Assembly (NCBI GenBank): GCA_033762625.1
Contig: JANRLI010000011.1
Coordinates: 1 to 64,000 of the forward strand
Reading direction: 5' to 3'
Length of the DNA stretch: 64,000 nucleotides
Source of the DNA: Alphaproteobacteria bacterium
Lineage (GTDB): Bacteria > Pseudomonadota > Alphaproteobacteria > UBA9219 > RGZA01
Below the pieces are notes generated by a model. It made no database searches and was not told where the DNA came from. It saw nothing but the letters and a program-made list of their open reading frames with translations. Made by a program: the position numbers and the translations under genes. This document shows, one piece after another, positions 3,575-58,255 of the stretch (positions are counted from its first letter, which is position 1; each line of letters begins with the position of its first letter).

Positions 3575-4621
3575 ATGCCAAGTACTGCCAAACCATCGAT
3601 CGCCATCATTTTAACGGGCGGAACCATCGGTTCCATACTGACCGAAAATGCAACACGCGCTGATATGGCGGGCAACCAATTGCTGCAATCGCGCATGGAA
3701 AGCCTGACCAAGAACCGCATTTTCGATTTTCATTTTCACCAATTGCTTGCCAAAGATTCCGGTGACTTCGATATGCCGGATTGGCATGCGATAGCAAGTG
3801 AAGTGGATGCGCAGATTAAAAAAGGCTGTAGGCGGTTTTTAATCACTCATGGTACGGATACCTTGCCGTTTACCGCAACATTATTGCAGTTATTATTTGC
3901 CAAACGTGATGTGAGCATTGCGCTGGCGGCGGCGTTCTATCCGCTGGAAGATGCGCGAACCGATGCAACCGCGAATATTACTGCTGCCATGGCATTGCTC
4001 ACCCAGCCGGAGCCACGCAAAGGTGTGTTCATTCCATTTCGTGGAACAGGGCGTGATGTAACGCTGCACCATGCCACAAACGTGCAGCAAATGTCGGCCG
4101 ATGCAGGAAGTTTTCATTCATTTTATGACGCAGCTGTGGGTGTTTATAAAGAAGGCATAGGCATTGAATGGGCCGAAGATAGGCCAAAACAGATTGAAAC
4201 CGATTTTCAAGTTCCGGCGTGCGAAAGCATGGTGAGCGCAGCCAAGCGTGTATATTTCCTAGCTGCCTATCCGGGAATGAATCTTGCCCCGTATCATGCG
4301 TTGGCGGCAAAAGAAAATATTCTGCTGGTTATCCGCAATTATCATAGCGGTACGGCGAATGCCAGTGATGGTCATGGCGGCGTGGCAGAATTTATGAAAC
4401 GCTTTCCAGAATCCTTGGTGGTATTTGCGCCATTGCCGGCAGCGCTCGTCAAAAAACCATATGAATCGACATGGAATTTGATGCGCATGGGCGCTTATGT
4501 GTACCGCGATCTACCGCCACATAAACTCTATGTGTTGGGCGTGTTGGGATTGGCCAACGGATTACAGCCGCGCGAGGCGATTGCGCCAGCGCAACCATGG
4601 CTTATGAACGAAACTATCTAG
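3575..4621 (+). CDS. Asparaginase family protein
   Basis: A 348-residue protein of the type I/II L-asparaginase fold, expected to hydrolyse asparagine to aspartate and ammonia. The N-terminal ILTGGTIGS carries the first catalytic threonine. ITHGTDTL (about residues 90-97) carries the second Thr-Asp pair. No signal peptide is visible, which suggests a cytoplasmic enzyme. The sequence between and after the motifs is diverged, so the exact substrate (asparagine, glutamine or another amide) is uncertain. It is a single gene after the rpoC terminator. Its 3' end overlaps the convergent downstream gene by 8 nt. Confidence 0.85.
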   Translation: MPSTAKPSIAIILTGGTIGSILTENATRADMAGNQLLQSRMESLTKNRIFDFHFHQLLAKDSGDFDMPDWHAIASEVDAQIKKGCRRFLITHGTDTLPFTATLLQLLFAKRDVSIALAAAFYPLEDARTDATANITAAMALLTQPEPRKGVFIPFRGTGRDVTLHHATNVQQMSADAGSFHSFYDAAVGVYKEGIGIEWAEDRPKQIETDFQVPACESMVSAAKRVYFLAAYPGMNLAPYHALAAKENILLVIRNYHSGTANASDGHGGVAEFMKRFPESLVVFAPLPAALVKKPYESTWNLMRMGAYVYRDLPPHKLYVLGVLGLANGLQPREAIAPAQPWLMNETI

Positions 4622-5534
4622 GCTGGCCCGCCATTATCCGCGTTGGAACAACCGGTGGTTTTTTGGCATCGGCAGGTTTTCTGGCTGGCGCCGTTGCCGC
4701 GGGTTCGGGAGGAGTTTCAAGATTGGCGGTACGCAATTGCGGAAAATCTTTCTCGAACAAATCGGTTTTTTCGGTTACGCGGCGTTCGATTTCACGCAAG
4801 GTTTCAGACGGCAGTCTTGGCCTGCAATGCGTTTTGTCGCAGTTGAAAAAATATGATGGATTGCTCTGTGCAGCTTTTTCCATATTCGGGGAAATGAACG
4901 GATTAGCCGCTGAGGTTAAGTGCTGATCCAGCTCGGATCGGGGAAATCGTTGCGTCAGGCCTGCGAGAAGTGAATCCATGGTGATGTTGTTTTTTCCTGC
5001 TGCCGCTTCGCGCAGGTTGCGTGCGCCTGTTGGCCCAAGGAAATGCGCAACGTAATCCGTGCTATTGCTGGCGACAATCAGCGCTTGCACCTGCGCTGTC
5101 AGGATAGGGTTTTTAAACATGTTTTGGGAAAATGCGAGTGCGCCAGCTGTAAATTGCGCAGGGTTTTTTGCTTTTAGCGCCAATAATGCCCGTGCCTGGG
5201 TGACATGACCTTGCAAAGATGGGTTGAATTGCACCTGTAAATCGGCGGTTCTTAAAAACCCTTCCAGCATGGTTTCCGGTTTAAAATGGAACGCGCCAAA
5301 GGCGGTATGCCGCGTAAAATCACCCGTAGTGGTCCGCGATGCGGGATTGCCGAATGATTCAAGCATCGCCCATGCCATGACGGTTGAAAAATCCTTTCCG
5401 CCATGGGGCCGGGCGAACTCGGTCACCGAATGGATATGCGCAATCAGTTGCGGGTCGAACCGTGGATAGATTTTTCTGAACCGCGCAAGTTGCTGGTCAG
5501 GAGTTAATACTCGGGGTGCGCGTTCTTGGGTCAT
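4614..5534 (-). CDS. Lytic-transglycosylase-like protein, no signal peptide
   Basis: A 306-residue protein. Residues about 50-110 resemble the SLT/lysozyme-like fold: AMLES with Glu59 in the position of the catalytic acid, then TAFGAFHFKPETM (77-89) where SLT enzymes have the G-x-(M/F)-Q motif. The rest is helical and ends in a proline/alanine/lysine-rich tail. No N-terminal signal peptide or membrane segment is seen, which is unusual for a peptidoglycan-cleaving enzyme. The 3' end overlaps the asparaginase gene by 8 nt. Family assignment is by motif only. It adds to the high number of muralytic-looking genes in this window. Confidence 0.55.
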   Translation of the reverse strand: MTQERAPRVLTPDQQLARFRKIYPRFDPQLIAHIHSVTEFARPHGGKDFSTVMAWAMLESFGNPASRTTTGDFTRHTAFGAFHFKPETMLEGFLRTADLQVQFNPSLQGHVTQARALLALKAKNPAQFTAGALAFSQNMFKNPILTAQVQALIVASNSTDYVAHFLGPTGARNLREAAAGKNNITMDSLLAGLTQRFPRSELDQHLTSAANPFISPNMEKAAQSNPSYFFNCDKTHCRPRLPSETLREIERRVTEKTDLFEKDFPQLRTANLETPPEPAATAPARKPADAKKPPVVPTRIMAGQPR

Positions 5535-24676: not shown

Positions 24677-27600
24677 ATGGCGAAAAAACCGCAAGCTCCA
24701 GCTTCTGCCAGTTTGAATCAAGGGGCCCAAAATCAAGCCAAACCGCAATCGCAGCAAGGAGCGCCCCAAAATTACGCGCAGCAGCATCTTGCGCCGCCCG
24801 TTCCGCCGCAAGCTTTTCCGCAGTTACGCAGCGGCGTGACCAATAAACAAAACGAAAGCAATCGCCGCGCAATGGGCGGTGCGATCATCGATCCACCAAA
24901 GCCACGCGAACAATTTGCATCATGGCCATTCTGGACGGGTATGGGATTGACCATCATCTGGTTTGTTGCCGTGTTCCTTGCAACCATGAGCGTGAATTCA
25001 TCGGGCAGCATTGCGGGCTTGCCTGTTACCACCATCGCGCTTGGTATCTCCGGCGTGATTGCGCCTGTTGCATTCCTTTGGATGATTATCGCTTACCTGC
25101 AACGCGCATCGGATGTGAAGGCCATCACCGAACCGCTTCGTCGCCAATTGCAGATGGTGTTGGGTACAGGCGCAAATGCTGAATCCCGCGTGCGCCGTTT
25201 TAACGAAGCGCTGGAACGCCAATTGGAATTGCTGCGTCAAGCGGGCGATGGTTCGTATGATGTATTGCAAAATGCGGTTCAGGTTTTGCAGGAAGAAGAA
25301 CGCGCGATCAACAATCTGGCTGAACGCAGCGGAAAAGAAATCCAGCGCGTGGCTGGCATTGTGCGTGATAACAGCGAAGTTCTGGAAGATTTGCTGCATG
25401 ATAACCGCGAACGCTTCAACGATTTGTCCGGAAAAATTGCGGGCCACATCGCAACGCTGGATGACCGCGCTGACCAAGCAGCAAGCCGACTTGGTGACAT
25501 GGTTGACCGCCTGCATTTGATGATTGACCAATTCAAAGCTGCGGCAGACCAGAAGCTTGCCGATGTTGCGAATGTTTCCGAGCAGATTGGCCGTCAGGAA
25601 AAAGATACCGAAGCATCCGCACAGCGTATGAGCGAAACCTTGCAAGCTGCCCGCCAGTCGGCGCAGGAACTTGGCAATATGCTGTCAAAGAACCAGGATA
25701 TTCTGGATGCTGCAGGTCAGCGGTTGATGGCGCGCATGCAGGAAATCGGCACGCAGATTGAACATTTTGCGTCGATTAGTGACAGCAAGGAAGCCAAGCT
25801 TGCACAAAGCGGCAAGCAATTGTCGGAAACCATGACGCATGAAATCGCGGCATTGGAAGCATTGACCAGCCGTTTGGAAGCGCAGATTTTTGCAGCGAAC
25901 CAAGGTATTGGTTCACGCACCGATGAATTGGAAAGCCGTCAGATTCGTTTGGCAGAACAAGCCGGCAATCTGATGCAGAATTTGCAGAATACGGTTGTCT
26001 TGCTGGATACCACGGCATCGGAAGCATTCCAGAAATATTCCAGCGTGCGTGATGATGTTGCCAACCAGAGCGAACGTATTGCCCGTCAGTTCCGTGAATC
26101 CAGCAGCCATTACGATAGCATGGCGCAGCGCCTTGACGACGTATCCAAGAATGTTGTGGAACGCGTTGCGGTAATCGGCAGCAGTCTTTCAAGCCAGGTA
26201 GAAAGCATTTCATCAGGCAGCGAACGTGCCTCCAGCGCAAGCCAGCAGGCCAGCGCCGCGGTCAGCTATTCCTTGCAGCAACTGGAAGTGATGATTGAAC
26301 GCATTTATGAAGCTGAAAAGCAGGCCAAGGAAAGCAGCAGCGGCTTGATTGGCAGCATTGAAGAAAAATTCAATTCATTGGTAAGCATGAGCGACCAGCA
26401 TGTGGCGCGTTTGAATTCAACCCATGATGAATTGGAAGATGTCGGCCAGAAACTGTCTGAACGCGCCCGTGAAGCGGAAGGCACATGGCAGTCGCTTGTT
26501 CAATCTGCGAATAACCAGCAGGAAGCACTGCAACAGCAATTGCGGGCCAAGGTGGATGACGCCGTTGCATTGCTGAATGAAAATGCACAAGCGATTGAAG
26601 CCGCCCGTGATAGCATGTACCAGCATGTGGAAGCTGGTCTTGCCCGCAGCGGCGAGATGGTGGACATGCTCGCCAAGCTTGGCACGGTAACCGATGCGCC
26701 ATTTAATGATGCAGTGGCGCGCGTGAGAACCTGTGTTGAACAGGGCGAAGACCAGCTCAACCGCTTTACGGCGGCCTTGCAAAAGAATGCAGCCGATATC
26801 GCCGAGCTCAACACCCGACTTGCAACCTATGGCGATAATGCTGGACATAAGGCTGCTGAAACACTTGCAGGTCTTGATGCCGTTGCAGCGCGTATGGAAG
26901 CCATTCAACATGGGAATATGCAGGCAACCCAGGATGTGTTGTTGCGCTTGAACCACGTTGCACAACAAGTGCAAAACCGTATGGGCGATATCAGCACCAC
27001 TGCGGAAGAAGAACAAAAGCGCCTTGGCGAAACCGTCCGTCAGCTCAGCTTTGACATTAATGGTCTCATCCATGACAGCCAGACAGCTGACCAACGCATT
27101 CGCATTGCGGCTAGCCTTCTTTCCGAGCAGGCATCGGATGTGCGCAGCAAGCTGGAATCCCAAGCGATGGGCATTGAAAGCGCGCTCGGCAATTTGAATG
27201 AGCAATTCAGTGCGATGTCGCAGCAGATGCGCGGCGCAACCGAAATTGCCCAAGCGCATATCGAAGAAATCAGCAAGCGCTATGGGGAGATTACCCATAT
27301 GAGCGGTGCTGGCCTTGAAGATAAAATCCGCGGCCTTGATTTTGTGGTCAGCGGCGCTGCGGAACGCCTTTCCAGCCTTGGCGAAACCATTGATGGTCGC
27401 ACGCAGCAATTAACGAGCGTGCACAACCAAATTCATGACAGCACGCAGATTTTGGACAGCGCAACCCAGCAGGCGCTTGACCGCTTGTCGGTATTTACCC
27501 ATGCGGTGGTTGCAGCCAAGACCACATCAGGCGATACCGCACAGGAAGTATATGCGCGGTTGAGCGATGTGCATGAACAATTCAACCGCCAGATTAGCGC

Positions 27601-30600
27601 GGTAAGTGAAGGTAGCCAGACCATTGCGCACACCATGCGCGATGCTGTGGCCAACCTTGTTGAACAGTCCGTGGGCCTTGCCGCTGCAAGCCAGCAGGCC
27701 GAACAGCGCATTGAAAATCTCGCAGCGACCACAGCTGCTCTGCAAGCAGAGGCGCAAAATGTGCGTATTTCGATTGAAGGCGAAGCCAAAGCAATGCAAG
27801 CGCGCCTTTCCGAAATCCTGTCGCAAATCGAAAGCGCCAGCGTGGGTATGGAACGCAATGCAGTCATCGCATTCGACCGCACCGAAGGCATGGCCAAGCG
27901 CTTTGATGGCATCAGCCAATCCGCATTCGCACGTTTGAATGAAGCCGCAACGCAAATTGAACATGTTGCCGATGGTTCAATCGCCAAGGTTGAAGCCGTG
28001 AACAAGTCATTGATGGATCAGATGGCAAGCCTGACCTTTGCGGGCGAACATCTGGCTGAGGTGGATAGCGAAATCCGCCGCTCCGCACAGGAAAGCACCG
28101 CATATCTCAACCGTCTTTCCAGCGAAGCAGGGGCAACAGCATCCTTTGCCGCTGAACAATTACGCCAGCAAATTACCGGCCTTAAGACCGAGGCTGAAGG
28201 CCTTCTTATGCGCTTTGATGCGCTGGGCAATGGCTTTGCCAACCAGTCGCTGGGTGTGTTTGATATTGCCGATAATCTGGAGCAAAAGATTACGCGCCTT
28301 CGCGATACCACGATTGCAGCTTATGAAGATGCAACCAATGCAGGTCAGCGTATTTTAAGCTCAACGCTTGAATTCAAGAACGAAGTTGCCGAAGCTGTTT
28401 CGACCATGTCGGCGACGGGTGAAGGCTTGCAACAGCGCGGCGAGATGGCCATTACCATGGTTCACCAAATGGCCGGACGTTTTGCCGAAGCAACGCAAAA
28501 TCTGCGTGAACAATTCGAAGCACAGGCAAGCCGTTTGGAAGATGTGGCCGGCAAGGCGCAAGCGCAGTTGCAAAGCTTTACTTCCGAAATCAAAGGCGGC
28601 GCCGACCAGTTGGATGGTTTAACTTCCAAACTTGCGGCATCCGGTGTTGATGTGAACGAAACATTGGAAAAGACCAACTTCCTTGTACGCAATGTGAGCG
28701 GCCAGATTGACCGCATGAAGACCAGTGCGCAGGAAGTTTCCGGCGGCTTGTTGCAAAGCATGGCGGATATGATTTCAACCTTTGAAAGCGAACTCAAAGG
28801 CATGACCGATAATGCCGGCAACACCATTGAAACGCTGAACCAGAAAGCCCGCGGCATCAGCGAGGCAATGAAGGATGAAGCGCAAAACGCAGCCGACTCT
28901 ATTTTACAAACGCTGAGCGATATGCGTTCCAATGTGGAAGGCAGCCTTGATCTGGTGGTCAGCAAGACCGGCGAAGTCATGGCAACGGTTAAGGATGAAA
29001 GCAGCAAGCTTTCGGCCACAGTGGAAGGCAATCTTGATCTGGTGGTCAGCAAGACCGGCGAGGTCATGGCAACCGTGAAGGATGAAAGCAGCAAGCTCTC
29101 AACCGCCATGACACAAGAAGTTGAAAAAGCATTTGCCAGCGCGAACCAGAACATCTCCGCGATGCAGCTGGATTTCCGTTCCACCATTGTGGGTATGGTT
29201 GAAGTGTTGGTGACGCATCTGCGCCAAATTCAGGAAAATGGTTCGGGCGTGATGGAAAGCATCCGCTCCGGTGCTGCGATTGGCACTGAACAGGCGATGC
29301 AAATGCTGGCCGATTTGCGTGCCAAGACCGAAGAACAGGTATTGGGTATGGCCAGTTATGTTGAACTGGCATTGCAGGGTATGCGCCAGTCATCACTTGC
29401 CATGGCAGCCGAATTGAAGGGCGATAGCACGCAAACGCAGCGTGATGCCGTTGCGGCCTTTGCACAGATGCGCGAGCAAGTCGAAGGCGAATTCAAGAAT
29501 ATCATCGCCCGCGCGCAAGAATCCGCAGCGCAGTTGCAAGCCAATTGCGATTTGCTGACCAAAGATATGCGCAAGGCGGTTATTGATGCCGAACGCAATG
29601 CCGAACGTATTTCCGAAGAAATGCGCAAGGTTGTTGAAGAAACACAGTCCGGCTCATCGTTGATGGTGCAGGATATTGTGGCCGCTGCAACCCAAGCACA
29701 GGAAGTTGGTGCAAGCTTCAACACCGTTGCCAATTCGATGCGTTCAGATAGTGCCAAGATTTCAGCCGGTGTTTCGGAAGTGGCGCAAAGCCTTTCCACC
29801 ACCAACACATTGCTGCAACGCAGCCAAAGCGCGTTGTATGATGTAGCGCAGAAATCCAGCGATGCATTAAATGTGTTCAATGACAGCATTATGCATCAGT
29901 CACGCAACCTTGCCAGCCTGCAACAAAGCTTTGTGCAGACGGCTGATCATATGTCAGCGGCCGATGAACGCATGACCGTTTTGAAGCATGGCTTCCAGAA
30001 CGTGCTTGCTGAAATCATGGAGCGTCTCAATGGCGGCCTTGTGAATTTGGGTCAGCAAATTGTCAATGTGAAACAGGAAGCAGAAAGTGCTGCGCACATT
30101 GTGACCACGAGCGGGCAGGAAGTTGCAAACCAGAACATCAACATGACCCAAACAGCAGAAGCGCTGGCAACCGCGCTTTCACAGCTTGAAGCGGTCAACC
30201 GCACGTTGTCGGCCAATATGCGTGACAGCGCCATTGAAACCGAACAGCAGGCCCGCCAAATCTCGGCGCTCAGCCAGCAAGTGCAACAGCAGGTTTCGAC
30301 GTTGGAAAATGCTGCGCAAGCAGCAGCGCATCAAAGCGTTGCGGTAAGCCAGGCGCTTGATACACCACTTAGCCGTTTTGACACGCTGAACGAACGTATG
30401 GATAAGACATTAAATCTGACTGTGATGGTGGGTGATAAAATCACCGGCCAGCTTGGCAGCATTACCCGTGAAATGGAACGTGCATTGCATGATTTAGCTG
30501 AAGGCACACAAAAGGCCGGCAGCATCATTCAAACCACCACGCAAACCTTCAAGCAGGCACGTGATGAAGCAGCGGAAGAAATGTTGCAGCGTTTGCGGGA

Positions 30601-31033
30601 TATTACCCGTAAGAATGAAGCTGCTGCCCAAGCCAGCTATCAGCCGCAGCCTGTGCCGCAGGTATTCCAGCAATACCAGCAGCCGGTACAACAGCCTGCG
30701 CCACAACCGCAGCAGCAATATGTGCCGCAGCCCATTCAGCAGCCTGCCACAAGCTATGTGCCAAACAGCTTTGGCGCACCGCAGGGTCAGCCGCATGTAC
30801 CGCCCCCGGCACAGCCAGCAGTGCAACAAGTTGTGCAACCTGTCCAGCAATCCTATTCATCACAACACCCGATGCAGTCCTTCGTTCAACCGCAAGCGGT
30901 TAAACCAGCACCGGTAGTGAAGAAGCAGGATAGTGATCTGATCAACTCCCTCACGCAGATCATCCAGCAGCTTGAAGAAACAGCTGGCGCTCCTGCGGGC
31001 GGTGTTGATGTCAAACAGAAGAAAAGCTTCTAG
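24677..31033 (+). CDS. Giant membrane-anchored coiled-coil protein (2118 aa)
   Basis: A 2118-residue protein. The N-terminal ~80 residues are disordered and Gln/Pro/Ala-rich. Two membrane segments (about 88-106 and 117-141) flank a short loop, so the long C-terminal part should face the cytoplasm. Residues about 145-1960 are almost continuous helix and coiled coil, rich in Ala/Gln/Glu/Ser, resembling chemoreceptor-like or apolipoprotein-like repeats. Residues about 1970-2080 are Pro/Gln-rich. A conserved-looking terminal helix (SDLINSLTQIIQQLEE) ends the protein. A 29-residue exact-phase repeat occurs near residue 1420. It may be a polar or envelope scaffold, by analogy to large alphaproteobacterial coiled-coil proteins; no function is shown. 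Its stop overlaps the cysQ start by 1 nt. Confidence 0.9.
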   Translation: MAKKPQAPASASLNQGAQNQAKPQSQQGAPQNYAQQHLAPPVPPQAFPQLRSGVTNKQNESNRRAMGGAIIDPPKPREQFASWPFWTGMGLTIIWFVAVFLATMSVNSSGSIAGLPVTTIALGISGVIAPVAFLWMIIAYLQRASDVKAITEPLRRQLQMVLGTGANAESRVRRFNEALERQLELLRQAGDGSYDVLQNAVQVLQEEERAINNLAERSGKEIQRVAGIVRDNSEVLEDLLHDNRERFNDLSGKIAGHIATLDDRADQAASRLGDMVDRLHLMIDQFKAAADQKLADVANVSEQIGRQEKDTEASAQRMSETLQAARQSAQELGNMLSKNQDILDAAGQRLMARMQEIGTQIEHFASISDSKEAKLAQSGKQLSETMTHEIAALEALTSRLEAQIFAANQGIGSRTDELESRQIRLAEQAGNLMQNLQNTVVLLDTTASEAFQKYSSVRDDVANQSERIARQFRESSSHYDSMAQRLDDVSKNVVERVAVIGSSLSSQVESISSGSERASSASQQASAAVSYSLQQLEVMIERIYEAEKQAKESSSGLIGSIEEKFNSLVSMSDQHVARLNSTHDELEDVGQKLSERAREAEGTWQSLVQSANNQQEALQQQLRAKVDDAVALLNENAQAIEAARDSMYQHVEAGLARSGEMVDMLAKLGTVTDAPFNDAVARVRTCVEQGEDQLNRFTAALQKNAADIAELNTRLATYGDNAGHKAAETLAGLDAVAARMEAIQHGNMQATQDVLLRLNHVAQQVQNRMGDISTTAEEEQKRLGETVRQLSFDINGLIHDSQTADQRIRIAASLLSEQASDVRSKLESQAMGIESALGNLNEQFSAMSQQMRGATEIAQAHIEEISKRYGEITHMSGAGLEDKIRGLDFVVSGAAERLSSLGETIDGRTQQLTSVHNQIHDSTQILDSATQQALDRLSVFTHAVVAAKTTSGDTAQEVYARLSDVHEQFNRQISAVSEGSQTIAHTMRDAVANLVEQSVGLAAASQQAEQRIENLAATTAALQAEAQNVRISIEGEAKAMQARLSEILSQIESASVGMERNAVIAFDRTEGMAKRFDGISQSAFARLNEAATQIEHVADGSIAKVEAVNKSLMDQMASLTFAGEHLAEVDSEIRRSAQESTAYLNRLSSEAGATASFAAEQLRQQITGLKTEAEGLLMRFDALGNGFANQSLGVFDIADNLEQKITRLRDTTIAAYEDATNAGQRILSSTLEFKNEVAEAVSTMSATGEGLQQRGEMAITMVHQMAGRFAEATQNLREQFEAQASRLEDVAGKAQAQLQSFTSEIKGGADQLDGLTSKLAASGVDVNETLEKTNFLVRNVSGQIDRMKTSAQEVSGGLLQSMADMISTFESELKGMTDNAGNTIETLNQKARGISEAMKDEAQNAADSILQTLSDMRSNVEGSLDLVVSKTGEVMATVKDESSKLSATVEGNLDLVVSKTGEVMATVKDESSKLSTAMTQEVEKAFASANQNISAMQLDFRSTIVGMVEVLVTHLRQIQENGSGVMESIRSGAAIGTEQAMQMLADLRAKTEEQVLGMASYVELALQGMRQSSLAMAAELKGDSTQTQRDAVAAFAQMREQVEGEFKNIIARAQESAAQLQANCDLLTKDMRKAVIDAERNAERISEEMRKVVEETQSGSSLMVQDIVAAATQAQEVGASFNTVANSMRSDSAKISAGVSEVAQSLSTTNTLLQRSQSALYDVAQKSSDALNVFNDSIMHQSRNLASLQQSFVQTADHMSAADERMTVLKHGFQNVLAEIMERLNGGLVNLGQQIVNVKQEAESAAHIVTTSGQEVANQNINMTQTAEALATALSQLEAVNRTLSANMRDSAIETEQQARQISALSQQVQQQVSTLENAAQAAAHQSVAVSQALDTPLSRFDTLNERMDKTLNLTVMVGDKITGQLGSITREMERALHDLAEGTQKAGSIIQTTTQTFKQARDEAAEEMLQRLRDITRKNEAAAQASYQPQPVPQVFQQYQQPVQQPAPQPQQQYVPQPIQQPATSYVPNSFGAPQGQPHVPPPAQPAVQQVVQPVQQSYSSQHPMQSFVQPQAVKPAPVVKKQDSDLINSLTQIIQQLEETAGAPAGGVDVKQKKSF
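28934..29107 (+). repeat. Internal tandem duplication, 2 x 87 bp
   Basis: Two adjacent 87-bp units (28934-29020, 29021-29107) encode nearly identical 29-residue segments with LDLVVSKTGEVMATVKDESS. The unit is in frame and matches the heptad-like helix. It is a recent duplication inside the coiled-coil gene. Confidence 0.9.
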
Positions 31034-44422: not shown

Positions 44423-44518
44423 ATGCCTGCGCAGGTCAACAACCTTGCCGCACACGCGATCCCTGCAATGCCACACGGTATTGCAGAGCATGGCGCGCGT
44501 CCCTACGTGGTGATGTAA
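44423..44518 (+). CDS. 31-residue leader-type ORF
   Basis: An ATG with AAAGGGATAGGG just upstream opens a 31-codon frame ending GARPYVVM. Its TAA stop (44516-44518) overlaps the ATG of the SleB-like gene (TAATG), so ribosomes could restart directly. The hydrolase has no independent ribosome binding site of note. The peptide itself is not recognised. Confidence 0.55.
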   Translation: MPAQVNNLAAHAIPAMPHGIAEHGARPYVVM

Positions 44519-45321
44519 TGGCACGTCATCCTGCTAATCGAGATCCACGATCTAATCCACATGCAATTATTGATCGCAGACAGTTCGAGCGTGAATTGTT
44601 TGATGCGCATGGAAGGCCAACCCCTGTCATGTTTGCGTTTGCAGGACGCATGCAGAAAGAAGTGGGCGCTCAAGGCACCGACGCACAAATGGCGTGGGCT
44701 GAAACTGTTTTTAATCGTAGCGCCGCGCGCAACCATACACTGAATTATGAATTACGTAATCATGGCAATTACAACTATTGGCCGCGGCACCAGCCTGATC
44801 CTGGTTATTCAAATAATCCTGCTTTCATCGAGATGATTACCAAGGTTATGAGAAACGGAACTAATTTAAGCTTGGGCGCAACCGGTAATGCGTCTGAAAA
44901 TGTCGGCGTGGGTAGGGAAACCTTCCGTTCACGCGGAGAACGCTTCGGCGTTGAAACTCCAGATTCCGGTTGGTGGAATAACCGTTTTGCTAGTCTTATT
45001 CGCGGGGTTGGACGTTTTATCGGCGATGTGGCGAGCGTGATTGGCAACACGATTGCAACTGTTGCAACGGGTGTTGTGAATGCGGGACGCTGGGTCATGA
45101 ATAGGATTTCGGATATGTTTTCGCCGCCGCCCCCCGCCGTGCATCCACACGCACCAGCGCCGCCGCATCATCCGAGTTATGTGCCACAGCAACCACCAGA
45201 ACGCAGGATAATGACACCGCAAAGCGTCACGCACACCGCATGGGTGATGCACCGTCATACGACAACCACTTTGCCTGAACCTCGCCCTGAACCACACCGC
45301 CCGACACGGCCGACCGTATAA
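44518..45321 (+). CDS. SleB-like cell-wall hydrolase with MHRH tail motif
   Basis: A 267-residue protein. Residues about 40-145 resemble the SleB/Hydrolase_2 cell-wall hydrolase domain: EVGAQGTDAQMAWAETVFNR, then YELRNHGNYNYWP. A helical region (about 160-200, FIGDVASVIGNTIATVATG) may be membrane-active. A Pro/His-rich tail (205-267) contains AWVMHRHTTTT (motif at 45238-45258). There is no N-terminal signal peptide. It is the first of three consecutive muralytic genes. The [WF]xM[HQ]RH motif recurs in the next two and at 55186-56247. Confidence 0.7.
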   Translation: MARHPANRDPRSNPHAIIDRRQFERELFDAHGRPTPVMFAFAGRMQKEVGAQGTDAQMAWAETVFNRSAARNHTLNYELRNHGNYNYWPRHQPDPGYSNNPAFIEMITKVMRNGTNLSLGATGNASENVGVGRETFRSRGERFGVETPDSGWWNNRFASLIRGVGRFIGDVASVIGNTIATVATGVVNAGRWVMNRISDMFSPPPPAVHPHAPAPPHHPSYVPQQPPERRIMTPQSVTHTAWVMHRHTTTTLPEPRPEPHRPTRPTV

Positions 45322-45499
45322 AACGCGCTCATTAACCATATAAAGAAATAACTCAATTTGGCGCGTGTGAATAATGCGTTGTAATTCCTTATCAAGATTG
45401 CAGCAAACACCGCGTGCGTTAACGCTTATTTCACCAAGTTTTAATGATAAGAAATTAAAGTAAGTATAAATAGATAAGCTTTTATTTAAAGGGCGAATA

Positions 45500-46396
45500 A
45501 TGGTCGCTGCCAGACATCATAGTGATCAACGAAACGACCCCGCTGCAAATCGCCGGCGTGTGCTGGAACACCTTACGACGGCTTATAATTTTCAGCAGCA
45601 TCAGATCCAAGCGGTCATGGCCGCCATTCAGCATGAATCCACATTCCGATTGGGCGTTGTTGGCGATAGAAATTTGGGCAGAGGCCGTGAAGCCTATGGC
45701 TTGTTCCAGTGGCGTGAGGAACGCAAGCACGGGCTTGATCGTTTTGTTGCCGCGCGCCCGCATCAAGATGAGGTCACCGCGCATGTCGATTATGCCATGC
45801 ATGAAATGGGCATCGCGCGGCGTGATAATTCCAACGTGCCCGGGCCAAGATGGAATATTGAAGTCGTTCCCGGAAATATGCTGCGGCGTGCAACAAATCT
45901 GGCGCAGGCCGTAGAAGCGATGCATCGCTTCGAGCGTTATGATAACCGTTTTGGGGAAACGAATAAAAGACACCGCACCGCCATGGGTTTTTTCCGCGAG
46001 GTGGGCGATGCCATCCAGCGTGCATTTACTGTGGTGCGTGATGCGGCAGTTGGTGCATTCAACTATGTATTTGGTGGAAGACAGCCAGACCCGCCGCATC
46101 CGGATGCGCATCACCCTGACGCGCGCCGTCCTGAAGCGCCTCCTCACGTGACCACTACAACCAGCGTGTGGCGCATGCAGCGCCATACCAGCGCTGATAT
46201 GGGAACCCAAGAACACCGTGAGCAAGTTTCCTATACCCAATACGGTGTGCCGATACGTTCCCCCGAACAACGTCCGTTGGGACAGGTTGTGCCGATGAAA
46301 CGGCCTATAACAGCTGGCCCACATCTGCATCCCGCGCCTGCATTTGTAATGCACAGGCATAGACAGCCGGATGAACCGCATCCACCGCGCGCATAA
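45500..46396 (+). CDS. Phage-tail-lysozyme-like protein with two MHRH motifs
   Basis: A 298-residue protein. Residues about 15-155 match the phage tail lysozyme (Phage_lysozyme2) pattern: ILEHLTTAYNF-like start (here VLEHLTTAYNFQQHQIQAVM), IQHESTFRLG with a likely catalytic Glu, and AYGLFQWREERK. A short helix and a Pro/His-rich tail follow. The tail holds VWRMQRH (46166-46186) and, near the end, FVMHRH (46343-46360). There is no signal peptide. The ribosome binding site is AAAGGGCG. It is 9 bp before the next gene, so the two are probably co-transcribed. Confidence 0.75.
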   Translation: MVAARHHSDQRNDPAANRRRVLEHLTTAYNFQQHQIQAVMAAIQHESTFRLGVVGDRNLGRGREAYGLFQWREERKHGLDRFVAARPHQDEVTAHVDYAMHEMGIARRDNSNVPGPRWNIEVVPGNMLRRATNLAQAVEAMHRFERYDNRFGETNKRHRTAMGFFREVGDAIQRAFTVVRDAAVGAFNYVFGGRQPDPPHPDAHHPDARRPEAPPHVTTTTSVWRMQRHTSADMGTQEHREQVSYTQYGVPIRSPEQRPLGQVVPMKRPITAGPHLHPAPAFVMHRHRQPDEPHPPRA

Positions 46397-46405
46397 GTTA
46401 CGGGC

Positions 46406-47818
46406 ATGGGAATGACAAACTATCCACGTTCACCACGGTACTCGGAATACGAAGCCGCATTGCAACATCCCAATGTGCGCGCGTTTCTTGATGCAATTGC
46501 CAAAGCCGAAGGAACCTATCGGCGCGGTGACGACGGATATAATATTGTTGTGGGGCACAGCCAGTTCAATAACGGCTATGCCGAACATCCGCGCAGAATG
46601 GTGCAGTTGAATCCGCGGCTGCGTTCAAACGCAGCGGGCCGTTATCAGTTTATCAGCACGACATGGGACCGTATTGCGCGTACCTATGGGTATAATGATT
46701 TCAAACCCCACACGCAAGATATTGCAGCGGTATCGCTGATTGCAGAACGCGGTGCATTGCAGGCTGTTATGCGCGGCGATATTCAACGTGCTGCGCATTT
46801 ATGCCGTCAGGAATGGGCATCACTGCCGGGTTCGGAACACGGGCAGCGCACGGTATCTGTAAATAGTTTTCTGAAAGGATTTCGTGATGCGCTTGCAGAA
46901 ATCGGGCGCGGCATTAACAATGTGTTCACATCAATCGGCAGTGCAATCGGCAATGCATTTCGCCCGCCAGCACCGCAGCAACACCCATTGCCACAAGTCC
47001 AGCAACACACGCAGCCACAAGGCTGGGTTATGCATCGCCATAACGGAGACCAGCAGCCAACACCCAGTGCAATACCGCTTCCAACACCAAGCGCGATACC
47101 AAGCGCAACACCTTCTTATTCGCCGCAGATGACGGCGCCGCTTAGTGACATGAGGCCAGAGCTAAGACATGCACCCAGCACAACGCCGATGGTGCCATGG
47201 GTGAATAACCGCGCGCCGGTTATTCCCAACCAGCAAACCAATGTGATTATGGGCGACAGTATTGGTGTGGGAGTGGGCCCGCAATATCCAGGCGTTAGAA
47301 ATGTTGCAGAGGGCGGGAGGAGTATTGGTGTGGCCGCCAATCAGTTTGCTAGAGTGCCGCGTGGCAGCGTGGCCGATGTGTATTTAGGTACGAATAATGC
47401 ACCTTATACGGCCGAACAAAACAGACAGCAAGTTCTTAAATTCTTAGCAGCAGCTGATAGGCAAGGTGTGCGCATCAATAACTGGATATTACCGGCTCAT
47501 CATGAACGGTCCCGAGCAACCGATGCAGGACTTCAGCGCGTGGGTGATATTATTACCCAAACCATTCGTGAATATAATGCCGCGCATCCGGATCGTCCAC
47601 CTATCCAAACCGTTGCAACGCGTGATCGGGGCGTTGTTCAATCGGCTGATGGCTATCATTTTACAGATAGAGGTAATCAGCAATTGAGAACCCTTGTCGC
47701 GCAGCAGGTACAAACATTGATTGCCAATACGGCGCGCCCGCCAGCCGTAGTGACGACAACCACCACCACAACGGCATGGGCCATGCAGCGGCATACGCCG
47801 CCGCACACCTCGGCGTAA
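46406..47818 (+). CDS. Lambda-R-like GH104 endolysin fused to an SGNH hydrolase, with MHRH motifs
   Basis: A 470-residue fusion. Residues about 20-165 resemble lambda endolysin R (GH104 transglycosylase): catalytic Glu35 in IAKAEGT, HPRRMVQLNPRLRSNAAGRY, and WASLPG. A Pro-rich linker contains GWVMHRH (47021-47041). Residues about 275-440 form an SGNH/GDSL hydrolase: Ser285 in IMGDSIGVG, and Asp415/His418 in DGYHFTDRG. This could deacetylate or de-esterify glycan. The Thr-rich C-terminus carries AWAMQRH (47774-47794). There is no signal peptide. Confidence 0.82.
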   Translation: MGMTNYPRSPRYSEYEAALQHPNVRAFLDAIAKAEGTYRRGDDGYNIVVGHSQFNNGYAEHPRRMVQLNPRLRSNAAGRYQFISTTWDRIARTYGYNDFKPHTQDIAAVSLIAERGALQAVMRGDIQRAAHLCRQEWASLPGSEHGQRTVSVNSFLKGFRDALAEIGRGINNVFTSIGSAIGNAFRPPAPQQHPLPQVQQHTQPQGWVMHRHNGDQQPTPSAIPLPTPSAIPSATPSYSPQMTAPLSDMRPELRHAPSTTPMVPWVNNRAPVIPNQQTNVIMGDSIGVGVGPQYPGVRNVAEGGRSIGVAANQFARVPRGSVADVYLGTNNAPYTAEQNRQQVLKFLAAADRQGVRINNWILPAHHERSRATDAGLQRVGDIITQTIREYNAAHPDRPPIQTVATRDRGVVQSADGYHFTDRGNQQLRTLVAQQVQTLIANTARPPAVVTTTTTTTAWAMQRHTPPHTSA

Positions 47819-51937: not shown

Positions 51938-52729
51938 ATGACGGTTAACCCATTGGCCGCCCAAAAAAACAGTAAGCCTGCCGCAGTTTGTATTTGTATC
52001 CATTGCATGGACCGCCGCATTAACTCCAACGCAACCCACGGTGTTGAAGTATTTAAAATGTCAACCGCTGGCGCATCGTTTCCAGCGCCATCTGCCCAGC
52101 AATGCACCCAGGAAGATAGCCTGCATATTATTTTAGAGCGTGCAAAAGAAAGCGGCCAGACCGTTATCTCGGCATTTTCCGGCCATGAGGATTGCGTAGC
52201 TGTACAGAGCATCTGGAATGCTGCGCACAAGCCTGCAACCGAACGCAGCGAACGTGATGCGGCACGCCTTGCACCCTATGCGGCACTTGTCGAGCAGGTG
52301 CGCAGCCACACGATTGAGGAAACCGAACGCCTTCGTTTATTGACACAAGCCAAGACCTTGCAGGATATCAATCACGCATTTGCGTATGATGATATTCAAG
52401 CGGTGGTGAATGAGAATGAGTTGAGCATCGTTGCCTATTTTGAAGATGTGGTGACCGAACCGCACCGTTTGTATATTTTTGATGTGAAGCAAAATGTGTT
52501 TGTTTCAACCACAACGCGCTTGAAAGAGTTGTTAGAACAGCCTGAATTGCTTGAACAGTATGCGTTAAAAGCACCTGTAAATGTTGCTGCATTTGTTGAA
52601 GACAAGGCTGCGATTTACAAACAACGCCGATACGAAAAAGCCATTAAGTCGATGGTTGTTGACCGTGATGAACAAGATGCACAGGAAATCAGACCAGCGT
52701 TGCAAATTGCCCGGGTTGCGCGCAGTTAA
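51938..52729 (+). CDS. Diverged beta-carbonic-anhydrase-like protein, paralogue 1
   Basis: A 263-residue protein. CICIHCMDRRI holds Cys23 and Asp25, and SGHEDC holds His83 and Cys86, the C-x-D...H-x2-C zinc pattern of beta-carbonic anhydrases. STAGAS stands where the family has RNAG. The C-terminal half (about 130-263) is extra and includes DVVTEPHRLYIFD. Whether it hydrates CO2 is unclear; the surrounding sequence is far from the standard enzyme. A ribosome binding site GAGGATGT precedes the start. A paralogue follows at 52858. Confidence 0.65.
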   Translation: MTVNPLAAQKNSKPAAVCICIHCMDRRINSNATHGVEVFKMSTAGASFPAPSAQQCTQEDSLHIILERAKESGQTVISAFSGHEDCVAVQSIWNAAHKPATERSERDAARLAPYAALVEQVRSHTIEETERLRLLTQAKTLQDINHAFAYDDIQAVVNENELSIVAYFEDVVTEPHRLYIFDVKQNVFVSTTTRLKELLEQPELLEQYALKAPVNVAAFVEDKAAIYKQRRYEKAIKSMVVDRDEQDAQEIRPALQIARVARS

Positions 52730-52857: not shown

Positions 52858-53730
52858 ATGACTAATGTACAAACCATTACCTGCATGTGTTTCCGTTGTA
52901 TGGATAAGCGCCTTGATACGCGCAAAACGCATGGCGGCGTTCAGTTTCTTGCGACCAATGCCGGAGCATCTATTCCGGTTTCCCCGCCACCTGAAAGCGA
53001 TAAGCTTAGTGTTATTTTGGCATCGTTTTTCCTGCTTTATAGACATACCAAAGAAGATGACGGGTTATTAATCACCGCGCAATCGGGCCATTATGATTGT
53101 CTGGACGTAAAGAAAATCTGGGATGCAGCGACGAGTGGTGTGCCGATCACCCAGCGCTATGAGCGGACATTATATGAACCATATCTTGATCTGGCGCGGG
53201 ATGTGCAGCGTATGGGATTGGATACCACCAATAGCTTGCGCTTATTGTCTGCTGCAAAAACACTTGCCGATATGAATAACTTTTTGACATATCCGGAAGT
53301 AGAAAAAGGCGTTCATTCCAATCATTTGAAGTTTGTTGTCTATTATGAAGACCCGACCACCACGCCGTATCGTCTGATGATTTATGATTTTGCCGCAAAC
53401 CAGTATGTGGAACCAAAGCCAGCCACGTTCAGTTTCCTGAAGATGCGCTATACCAAAGCGGGTCCGAATTTGCTGGATGTGCAAGACAACATGCAATTGC
53501 TGTATCATTATGAAGTGCCGCGCCGGATTAATGTTACTCAATTTGTAGAACAGGAAGCGGCGCGTTTACGCGAAGGCACATCGATTTTATTGCCGCAGAA
53601 TGGCAAGCGCCCGTTATCCAGCAAAGTTGTATCGGCGCTTACGCGTGAAAATGCCCGCTATGCGGTTAACTATGCGCGGAGTGCAGGCCTGCGCATAGCT
53701 CGGAATACCCCGCTTCGTCACTTTTTATAA
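52858..53730 (+). CDS. Diverged beta-carbonic-anhydrase-like protein, paralogue 2
   Basis: A 290-residue paralogue of 51938-52729. CMCFRCMDKRLDTRKTHGG gives Cys14 and Asp16, QSGHYDC gives His78 and Cys81, and ATNAGASIP matches the RNAG region. It shares the same C-terminal extension (YEDPTTTPYRLMIYD against FEDVVTEPHRLYIFD). All putative zinc ligands are kept in both copies. The ribosome binding site is weak. The last 65 nt overlap the convergent Nudix gene. Confidence 0.65.
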   Translation: MTNVQTITCMCFRCMDKRLDTRKTHGGVQFLATNAGASIPVSPPPESDKLSVILASFFLLYRHTKEDDGLLITAQSGHYDCLDVKKIWDAATSGVPITQRYERTLYEPYLDLARDVQRMGLDTTNSLRLLSAAKTLADMNNFLTYPEVEKGVHSNHLKFVVYYEDPTTTPYRLMIYDFAANQYVEPKPATFSFLKMRYTKAGPNLLDVQDNMQLLYHYEVPRRINVTQFVEQEAARLREGTSILLPQNGKRPLSSKVVSALTRENARYAVNYARSAGLRIARNTPLRHFL

Positions 53731-55185: not shown

Positions 55186-56247
55186 ATGAATTTTGGATAC
55201 GGCATGGTTTATCCGCCAACACCAACCGCATTGCCCGCTGCTTCGCTATTGCCGCCGTTGCGGCCAGCGCCGCGTTTTTTCGAATTTGCTTCGCCATCCG
55301 AGAAGGTTGAAGCACACCGCAACGGAATAAGCGCCGCGCGCATCCGTGAATTGGTGCGGCTGCATGGTAATAACATTGTCATCGGGTTTGATATGGGAAA
55401 AACCAAATTCGATTCACGCTTGCGCGGCGTTTATACGCATGAGCAGGCTTTGGCACAGACCGAACTCGCAAGAAATAGCGCCATGCTCGAAGCCTATAAC
55501 GAAGCAAGGCGGCTGGGGGTTCGGTTGCATGCGTATCTGGGCGGGCCAGGCGGGCCAACCGGAGGCAGGATCACCGATGGGGAAATGGAGCATATGCGCA
55601 CATCCGCCGGTCTGGTAGGCATTGATACCAGCAGAAGTAACTGGATGAATGAATGGAATGATTGGGGTTGGAAAAAAGCAGCCCAAGAACAGCTTAAGGT
55701 TATTAAGCAATTAGGGTTCGAATCCTACGAACTGGATAATCTGGAACGCGATGCCCGTATCAGAGCGCCACGTGATGCCGATACTGCGATGAAAACCAGC
55801 GGATTAATTGATCTTTACCGTGAAACAGCAAAGTGGGATGGATCCTTGCGCTTGATGATGAAGAATCTGGAAGTCGAGAATCTGCAAGGTGTTGAGCAAG
55901 CGATGAACAGCGGATTGTTGAACCGCCGCAACTTTGCAGATTTCCATATCTCAGAAGAAAACAATCGGAGCCGCTGGCCTGCTATTGAACGTGCCTCTGC
56001 CCGGATTGGCATACAGCTAGCGCGTTCGCATGATACATACAACTATGCCACAACCCAGGCATATTCTCCGAGCCTGGAAGCGGATATGTTGCGTTTCAGT
56101 AATCTGCAAACAAATATTGCCATGCAGCAGCATCAAGAAGGATGGCGCATTAATGCGCAGGCAACCCCGCGTCCTGTCCATCAGCGCAGTGACCAAACAC
56201 CAACTTCTACCCCCGCGCCATTCGTGATGCACCGCCATACGACATAA
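55186..56247 (+). CDS. TIM-barrel glycosidase-like protein ending in MHRH motif
   Basis: A 353-residue protein. The Pro/Ala-rich N-terminus is not a clear signal peptide. Residues about 50-290 look like a glycosidase-type TIM barrel: NIVIGFDMGK, LGVRLHAYLGGPGG, and QLGFESYELDNLERD, the last resembling the acidic strand ends of GH114/TM1410 proteins. The C-terminal tail is Thr/Pro-rich and finishes APFVMHRHTT (56221-56238), the motif shared with the three genes at 44518-47818. The catalytic function is unproven. Confidence 0.6.
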   Translation: MNFGYGMVYPPTPTALPAASLLPPLRPAPRFFEFASPSEKVEAHRNGISAARIRELVRLHGNNIVIGFDMGKTKFDSRLRGVYTHEQALAQTELARNSAMLEAYNEARRLGVRLHAYLGGPGGPTGGRITDGEMEHMRTSAGLVGIDTSRSNWMNEWNDWGWKKAAQEQLKVIKQLGFESYELDNLERDARIRAPRDADTAMKTSGLIDLYRETAKWDGSLRLMMKNLEVENLQGVEQAMNSGLLNRRNFADFHISEENNRSRWPAIERASARIGIQLARSHDTYNYATTQAYSPSLEADMLRFSNLQTNIAMQQHQEGWRINAQATPRPVHQRSDQTPTSTPAPFVMHRHTT

Positions 56248-56538: not shown

Positions 56539-57153
56539 ATGCGTCGTCGTAGATATCCAAATCATAGTGGCCCTCGCGCTGGCCGTACGCCGCGTGGCAG
56601 ACCGTTTAGCCCAGAGGCACAAGCCGAACAAAATGCGATGAACGAGGTCATGAAAAAGTTATATGGCCCGAATGCCCGCCAGTTGAATCCGGATGGCATT
56701 GTTGGCCCCGCAACGAGAGGCGTTCAAGAGCTGATTGATAAGTCATTCCCGCCAGATCCCGCTAATCCAGGTGAAACCCGTTTGCAGCGCATGCAGCGCC
56801 TTAGCCAGTTTCTGGATACGCCTCAAGGCCAACAATTCATGGAACAGGCCAGAGCTAGCGGTGCAATGAACGATCTTAGCACCGGTGTCAACGCGCTGCC
56901 CGATACACCAAATGGCTTTATTCCCGGCACAGGGGTAGCGCCAGCGCCAACTGCCGCACCAACTGCCGCGCCAACCGCTGCACCGACAGCTGCGCCAACT
57001 GCTGCACCATCTGAAGCGCCAACCGCTGCGCCAACGGTAAGCCCACATCCGGCTGCGGTTGGATATACGGGTGAAGTTGGCACTACCGAATTACCTGTGA
57101 CACCAACACGCGCAAGTAATTTGATAACAGGACCAGTACCACCATCAAGCTAG
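56539..57153 (+). CDS. Peptidoglycan-binding-like protein with APTA repeats
   Basis: A 204-residue protein. A basic N-terminus (MRRRRYP) is followed by a PG_binding_1-like region (about 30-60): LYGPNARQLNPDGIVGPATR, where DGIVGPATR is the family hallmark. Residues about 134-170 are a run of APTA repeats encoded by 12-bp units. The C-terminal tail is GEVGTTELPVTP...ITGPVPPSS, shared with the next gene. There is no signal peptide. It is the first gene of a tandem trio. Confidence 0.6.
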   Translation: MRRRRYPNHSGPRAGRTPRGRPFSPEAQAEQNAMNEVMKKLYGPNARQLNPDGIVGPATRGVQELIDKSFPPDPANPGETRLQRMQRLSQFLDTPQGQQFMEQARASGAMNDLSTGVNALPDTPNGFIPGTGVAPAPTAAPTAAPTAAPTAAPTAAPSEAPTAAPTVSPHPAAVGYTGEVGTTELPVTPTRASNLITGPVPPSS

Positions 57154-57189: not shown

Positions 57190-57528
57190 ATGGCCGTTAA
57201 AGTATCACCCGAATCCATCGAAGCCGCGAAAGCGATGCAGCGCATACTTAAAACGTATGCAGGTTATACAGGCGAAATCGATGGCAACTTCGGCGCATTG
57301 TCGAGAGCAGCCATGGCACGATTTATGACAGCCCATAATGGCCATATGCCCATGATGCCTCATGTCCCTACGGCAACCGCAACGCCATCAGCAACGGTAT
57401 CAGCAGCACCCAATAACATAGTAAGGCCAATTCTTTCTGGAGAGGTGGGCACCACCGAGCTTCCAGCAAGCAGCCAACCAAAGGTAGTAGACAATAGAAT
57501 TGTCGGGCCGGTGCCACCATCAGCATAG
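57190..57528 (+). CDS. Peptidoglycan-binding-like protein (112 aa)
   Basis: A 112-residue protein. Residues about 8-50 match a PG_binding_1 domain: AAKAMQRILKTYAGYTGEID then GNFGALSRAAMARFM. After a Pro/Thr/Ala linker comes the tail SGEVGTTELPASS...IVGPVPPSA, nearly the same as in the previous gene. There is no signal peptide. The ribosome binding site AAGGAGAGAG is strong. Confidence 0.7.
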   Translation: MAVKVSPESIEAAKAMQRILKTYAGYTGEIDGNFGALSRAAMARFMTAHNGHMPMMPHVPTATATPSATVSAAPNNIVRPILSGEVGTTELPASSQPKVVDNRIVGPVPPSA

Positions 57529-57580: not shown

Positions 57581-58255
57581 ATGCCATTTACAATTAAATT
57601 AGAATCAGCACCAGGTGAAGATCCAGCACGCGTAGAAGAACGCAAGGCAGCTCAAACAGCTTGGGGACAACGTCTTCAAACTGCATTTGGTATCCCCGAT
57701 GCCCGCCTAGAAAATGGCGGTTTATTGCTTGGTAACCGTGGCCGTGTCACGCTGACCACCGGACCAACTCCGGGAACAGGCCCTTTTGGTAAGCCAATTC
57801 CGGGCATAACCACGGACGTTCAGGCGTTAAACAATATCAATACTACGAATAATACCAATCGCTCTCCTTTCCCGAATAGCACTTCGGTTATGCAAGTTGG
57901 CGTAACCCAGCCAGATGGTAGCATTTTGTTGGCGCGTAGAGGCGTAACTCCTGGCACCCCCCCGGGCTTGACCGATGAGGCATCTACTCAATATTTTAAA
58001 GGGAAACTTGTGAATAACACCTATGTTCCAGACGGTCCTGCATTGACTGGCTCACAAGTACCAACTGGAACTGCGCTTGCTTCACTGAATCAAGTGTTTA
58101 ATACAGTGCATGATGCTGCAGCGCCTGCAAATTCATTGATACCTGGCCTTACCCAGCGCACCAATGATGGTAAGATTATTGTGGCAGATGCGAGTGCAAC
58201 GACCGGTACGCCAAGCGCAGCGGCACGCCGTCCAGCTGGCCCAACGGTAGTTTAA
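57581..58255 (+). CDS. Hypothetical protein (224 aa), third of the trio
   Basis: A 224-residue protein of unknown family, low in charge and rich in Thr, Pro, Gly and Asn. The first ~45 residues (VEERKAAQTAWGQRLQTAFG) are helical and may be a diverged binding domain. The rest looks extended, with PTPGTGPFGKPIPG and NINTTNNTNRS. It lacks the GEVGTTELP tail and ends PAGPTVV. It has the strong ribosome binding site AGAGGAGAG and a terminator just after. It is probably co-transcribed with the two genes before it. Confidence 0.6.
   Translation: MPFTIKLESAPGEDPARVEERKAAQTAWGQRLQTAFGIPDARLENGGLLLGNRGRVTLTTGPTPGTGPFGKPIPGITTDVQALNNINTTNNTNRSPFPNSTSVMQVGVTQPDGSILLARRGVTPGTPPGLTDEASTQYFKGKLVNNTYVPDGPALTGSQVPTGTALASLNQVFNTVHDAAAPANSLIPGLTQRTNDGKIIVADASATTGTPSAAARRPAGPTVV

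Follow-up and report, generated by a model that had tools for sequence, protein, structure and literature searches.

Three putative peptidoglycan-degrading enzymes encoded in tandem, here called E1, E2 and E3, may be part of a larger group of at least eight proteins, encoded at scattered sites, that share a putative C-terminal docking motif with the core [WF]-x-M-x-R, a reading to which we assign a probability of roughly 45%. The genes lie in the window, by which we mean the whole 64,000-nucleotide stretch of contig JANRLI010000011.1 that was analysed. An initial annotation of this locus had missed both the shared tag and the five further proteins that carry it. A more far-reaching version, in which [WF]xMxR acts as a new sorting tag at the C-terminus and routes signal-less muralytic and other envelope-active enzymes into an undescribed delivery machine in an uncultured alphaproteobacterial genus, appears doubtful to us.

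The tandem enzyme genes and their surroundings

Reading of the open frames in the window gave three intact ORFs in a row on the plus strand, with intergenic gaps of 178 bp (E1 to E2) and 9 bp (E2 to E3). The first start codon of E1 is at 44518, and position 44423, noted earlier for this region, falls inside the E1 open frame. The domains of the three products are as follows.

44518..45321, + strand: E1, 267 aa; SleB-like helical domain (about 20-115, from a model), amphipathic helix (about 151-200), Pro-rich tagged tail
45500..46396, + strand: E2, 298 aa; Phage_lysozyme2 domain (17-163, Pfam), amphipathic helix (about 159-181), tail with two tags
46406..47818, + strand: E3, 470 aa; GH104 lambda-R-like lysozyme (25-163, from 1am7 and PHROG), amphipathic helix (about 155-174)
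within 46406..47818, + strand: remainder of E3; tagged linker, SGNH-like domain (about 283-420, from sequence blocks and a model), C-terminal tag

All three genes recur in the same order, at 60-85% identity, in a sister species (G002; MAG JAKFVN, D3_Bin_25), whose contigs break within E3, and this conservation argues that they are not chance open frames. The enzymatic assignments differ in strength. E2 matched the Pfam family Phage_lysozyme2 (PF18013) with E=2.2e-14 and 54.2 bits against a gathering score of 28.2, which places it in this family, and it had no match in viral contigs; an antisense ORF across it (45485-46381, - strand) is a by-product of base composition, the Pfam match being in the sense frame. 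Similarly, the N-terminal part of E3 matched lambda lysozyme (1am7, E=2.5e-32) and a PHROG endolysin (3.9e-39), and its Glu35 aligned with the catalytic Glu19 of lambda lysozyme, as expected of a GH104 enzyme.

The C-terminal part of E3 had no family or profile match in Pfam. The blocks typical of SGNH hydrolases (GDS, G, GxN and DxxH) are present and invariant between the two species, and nearly all structural matches of its low-confidence single-sequence model were SGNH/GDSL hydrolases, a sialate O-acetylesterase and PatB among them. With the same low-confidence model, Foldseek gave a top probability of 0.99 at E=7e-3 and VIA gave Z values up to 7.8, so that no match reached E 0.001 or Z 8; the C-terminal part is thus putatively SGNH-like. 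No phage record covered 80% of E3, and the SGNH fusion was not seen among these records. E1 matched no family in Pfam, NCBIfam or PHROG. In comparisons of its shallow, low-confidence model with known structures, SleB (4fet) alone reached Z>=2, at 6.7 across 77 residues and with an rmsd of 2.6, and Foldseek gave this pair E=8.7, so that a SleB-like fold is plausible but tentative. When 84,980 species were scanned for E1 with two exact peptide patterns, only the sister MAG JAKFVN matched.

On the 5' side, the trio is preceded by trmD, rplS, a murI-like gene, leuC, leuD and leuB (named by sequence recognition), and on the 3' side it is followed by an amylase gene (Pfam) and then lepA (sequence recognition), leuB and the amylase gene being the direct neighbours. 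The same neighbour order, on the leuB side as well as on the amylase/lepA side, is repeated in the sister species. Reading of the neighbourhood in the window revealed no phage genes around the trio and no holin beside the endolysin-type genes. A plain prophage was rejected on this context, given the housekeeping neighbours in two species, and the locus is not a plain prophage lysis cassette.

The initial annotation had described this locus as three muralytic enzymes of different type in a row, the last fused to an SGNH hydrolase and the whole distinct from a prophage lysis cassette. The tandem arrangement, its conserved order in a related genome and its non-prophage setting, between leuCDB and amylase plus lepA in both species, were all borne out. 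As for the enzyme types, those of E2 and of the N-terminal part of E3 reached significance, E2 by the profile search that had been suggested, whereas E1 and the C-terminal part of E3 had no profile match and owe their SleB and SGNH assignments to low-confidence structure models, joined in E3 by the blocks invariant in two species. The suggestion that the enzymes together cut several wall bonds and remove ester groups fits the domains found, though for the fold of E1 and for SGNH activity the basis is these weak models. Attack on a prey or host wall, which the initial annotation also suggested, may be their use.

The C-terminal tag and the proteins that carry it

Reading of the Pro/Thr-rich tails of E1, E2 and E3 revealed a common motif, [WF]xM[HQYR]R(H), which we found named in no paper. 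Its copies in the window are listed below together with a further tagged protein.

45241..45258, + strand: tag WVMHRH in E1, 20 residues from the C-terminus
46169..46186, + strand: tag WRMQRH in the E2 tail
46343..46360, + strand: tag FVMHRH close to the E2 C-terminus
47024..47041, + strand: tag WVMHRH in the E3 linker between GH104 and SGNH
47777..47794, + strand: tag WAMQRH at the E3 C-terminus
55186..56247, + strand: TIM-barrel-like protein, 353 aa, possible glycoside hydrolase (assigned by eye; no family match)
56221..56238, + strand: tag FVMHRH in the TIM-barrel-like protein, 2 residues from the C-terminus

In context, the copies read TAWVMHRHT in E1, SVWRMQRHT and PAFVMHRH in E2, and QGWVMHRHN and TAWAMQRHT in E3, while the TIM-barrel-like protein ends in PFVMHRHTT. 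Whole-genome pattern searches, followed by reading of the hits, found the tag on five more proteins, mostly unrelated and encoded at other genomic sites, and hence on eight in all, a survey of patterns and stretches in which variants such as FxM[QYR]R may be missed. Besides the TIM-barrel-like protein, these are an M23 peptidase on contig C11 at about 104.2 kb (PF01551, 75.3 bits against a gathering score of 28.7); an adjoining M15-like peptidase, tagged at both ends, with invariant SxHxxGxAxD and HxH zinc motifs and profile matches at E=0.02-0.07 only; a YkuD-like protein on contig C20, which had no profile match and in which HNTWGCIAG resembles the active-site region by eye; and an alpha/beta-hydrolase-like protein on contig C23, of which no copy was seen in the sister species. 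The M15, YkuD and alpha/beta-hydrolase assignments come from residue motifs, while GH104, Phage_lysozyme2 and M23 reached significance; against solved structures, the TIM-like and YkuD-like proteins gave chance-level matches only. Overall, the tagged proteins are predicted to be mostly peptidoglycan-active.

In all eight proteins a tag lies 2-21 residues from the C-terminus, and some of them have additional copies in a linker or at the N-terminal end. The core [WF]xMxR occurs 12 times in the 2,565 aa of the tagged proteins versus 0.33 times in shuffles of each protein (maximum 4 in 20,000 rounds). Among 142 other ORFs (44,372 aa) there were 8 matches, none of them, by their listed positions, within 21 residues of the C-terminus. 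At the DNA level, a pattern for WxM[HQ]RH matched 5 times in this genome and not at all in the reversed control; it matched 21 times in 95 other genomes, where no evident tag on a comparable protein was found. Between this genome and the sister species, the tag has been conserved and the sequence around it has not: across all ten copies with alignable orthologues, W/F, M and R were identical at 30 of 30 positions versus 56% identity in the flanks (Fisher p=1.4e-7), a comparison within a single species pair, the only two species that carry the set. Position 2 and position 4 were each kept in 7/10 copies and position 6 in 3/10. A metal-binding role of MHRH was considered and rejected, as positions 4 and 6 vary.

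The tagged proteins have further traits in common. No Sec or Tat signal peptide was evident in any of the eight, judged by hydropathy, and their open frames leave no space for a longer N-terminus. Most are lysine-poor and arginine-rich, with R/(R+K) of 0.73-0.93 versus a median of 0.50 in sampled ORFs, and the Pro/Thr-rich tag tails are predicted to be disordered. E1, E2 and E3 each carry a strong Arg-rich amphipathic helix directly behind the catalytic domain (moment 0.69-0.73, with 0.73 in E2), and a weaker one is present in the M15-like peptidase. TTAACC, a CtrA-like half-site, lies upstream of 4/6 tested tagged genes versus 9/90 others (p=0.003), in a small, post hoc test made after the motif had been seen. 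Searches of a 98%-complete congener (G001) and of further genomes of the order did not find E3, the TIM-barrel-like protein or the M15-like peptidase, E3 drawing only plain GH104-type or lysozyme matches; that the three are jointly missing, though chromosomally separate, hints that they work as one set. Next to the tagged genes, no immunity gene was seen.

Delivery, release and other readings

How might such a tag work? W, M and R at positions i, i+2 and i+4 would lie on one face of an extended strand, whose docking by that face would produce the observed alternation of kept and variable positions, and we infer that the tag could dock in this form into one receptor, which would either export the enzymes or load them onto a carrier. 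Once outside the cytoplasm, the enzymes might jointly cut several wall bonds, their target being most likely the wall of another bacterium, and the Arg-rich amphipathic helix of E1-E3 may help to cross or disturb a membrane. If delivered together, the enzymes would cut peptidoglycan at its glycan strands, peptide bridges and ester groups, which would be relevant to bacterial predation or competition and as a source of lysins.

Among the known machines, VirB4 (PF03135) and the T6SS sheath protein VipB (PF05943) were both absent from this genome and four relatives, with positive controls, which makes a VirB/D4 T4SS or a T6SS, the best-known machines for contact-dependent killing, unlikely as the machine. 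That eight mostly unrelated enzymes carry a conserved tag of six residues, in a genome with no T4SS or T6SS match, offers a handle for finding the partner.

Several known systems resemble parts of this arrangement. Signal-less peptidoglycan amidases and glycosidases are delivered as antibacterial effectors by the T6SS of Gram-negatives; the enzymes studied here are likewise signal-less and muralytic in a Gram-negative, but the VipB sheath was not found. Encapsulin and microcompartment cargo peptides are short C-terminal motifs that follow a flexible linker on unrelated enzymes, an arrangement matched here with a different motif. In logic, the nearest analogue is the set of Xanthomonadales T4SS effectors (X-Tfe), which have a C-terminal XVIPCD domain and cognate immunity genes and are exported by a VirB/D4 T4SS (PMC6759196). 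As in the tagged set, varied envelope-attacking enzymes (lysozyme-like hydrolases, peptidases and lipases) share one C-terminal recognition element there (PMC6759196), and XVIPCD exemplifies how shared C-terminal elements have served earlier as markers of secretion cargo. However, XVIPCD is a whole domain whereas the present tag has about six residues, and with no immunity gene seen and VirB4 not found, membership among the X-Tfe fails on the T4SS.

The same contig also carries genes of phage type.

about 79.6-96.4 kb of the contig (L046:16659-18998 and L127:904-14400): gene transfer agent (GTA)-type cluster

This cluster, about 32-50 kb downstream of the trio, encodes a terminase, portal, capsid, baseplate hub, NlpC/P60 protein and Rcc01698-like tail protein, together with lysis genes of its own (Phage_lysozyme and GTA_holin_3TM). 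In the sister species a comparable cluster adjoins kdsB and pheA at the corresponding place, and the cluster is of the vertically kept gene transfer agent type. The initial annotation had treated flanking phage genes in a longer contig as evidence against its reading; the phage-type genes 32-50 kb downstream count as such only formally, since they are those of the GTA. A GTA particle as the carrier of the tagged enzymes was rejected, as the GTA proteins lack the C-terminal tag, and survives only as part of the rival explanation that follows.

The GTA holin provides the strongest rival explanation, in which the enzymes build up in the cytoplasm of a subpopulation and leave it through GTA or phage-like lysis; the docking partner would then be another tagged enzyme, a particle or debris and not an exporter. 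A complete-looking cluster with holin and lysozyme on the same contig, kept in the sister species, speaks for this explanation, lambda-R-like and tail lysozymes are phage-type enzymes, and some GTA tail proteins are lysine-poor too. Phage endolysins may also bear amphipathic or cationic termini, and the lambda-R-like enzyme here has an Arg-rich amphipathic helix beside its catalytic domain, yet it is chromosomal among housekeeping genes, fused to an SGNH-like domain and marked with a common tag. As the tagged genes lie outside the separate GTA cluster, whose lysis and other proteins do not carry the tag at their C-termini, we consider such release unlikely.

A second rival turns the enzymes on the producer's own wall, with the tag targeting them, after an export step, to an envelope site used in division, attachment or a developmental event. 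Housekeeping wall enzymes occur in the M23, SleB-like and YkuD-like families, and the TTAACC enrichment would fit cell-cycle control, although that promoter test is post hoc and small. The missing signal peptides speak against own-wall remodelling, and the absence of E3, the TIM-barrel-like protein and the M15-like peptidase from a 98%-complete congener would be odd if they were essential, which leaves it improbable.

A prophage origin, in which the lysins of a former lysis or tail region were retained and rearranged, is very improbable. Homologues of GH104 and Phage_lysozyme2 do occur in phages, but the trio has housekeeping neighbours in two species and five more tagged proteins are encoded elsewhere in the genome; E1 and the M15-like peptidase were unmatched in the phage collection, the YkuD-like and TIM-barrel-like proteins were unmatched in the plasmid collection, and neither 80% coverage of E3 nor its SGNH fusion was seen among phage records. 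Finally, most tails are low-complexity and P/T/H/R-rich, so that the motif could be their functionless by-product, but its excess over shuffled sequences (12 versus 0.33) and its three invariant core positions between variable flanks make this barely credible. Docking of a dispersed enzyme set through a shared tag is the reading that we prefer.

Other proteins of the region

A gene for an S8-type autotransporter-like protein with a signal peptide (L158:8764-11610) is convergent with the tagged YkuD-like gene, the 3' ends facing each other, in both species. Within the window, the protein encoded at 4617-5534 (- strand) is signal-less and untagged; it matched no family but contains a lysozyme-like stretch, AMLESFGNP. 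The product of 24677-31030 (2118 aa) is a coiled-coil protein that by eye has two membrane helices at its N-terminal end, and its only match was apolipoprotein-like. Two tandem genes, 51938-52729 and 52858-53730, encode proteins with similar starts (CICIHCMDRR and CMCFRCMDKR), the former with a weak carbonic-anhydrase-like match. Two signal-less proteins, encoded at 56539-57153 and 57190-57528, share a different C-terminal block, GEVGTTELP ... NxIxGPVPPS, which is kept in the sister species and is possibly a second tag family. The latter protein has a weak PG_binding_1 match and the former is similar to it by eye, with three TTAACC sites upstream of its gene; downstream of the pair, 57581-58255 encodes a 224-aa protein without a family match that is likewise kept in the sister species.
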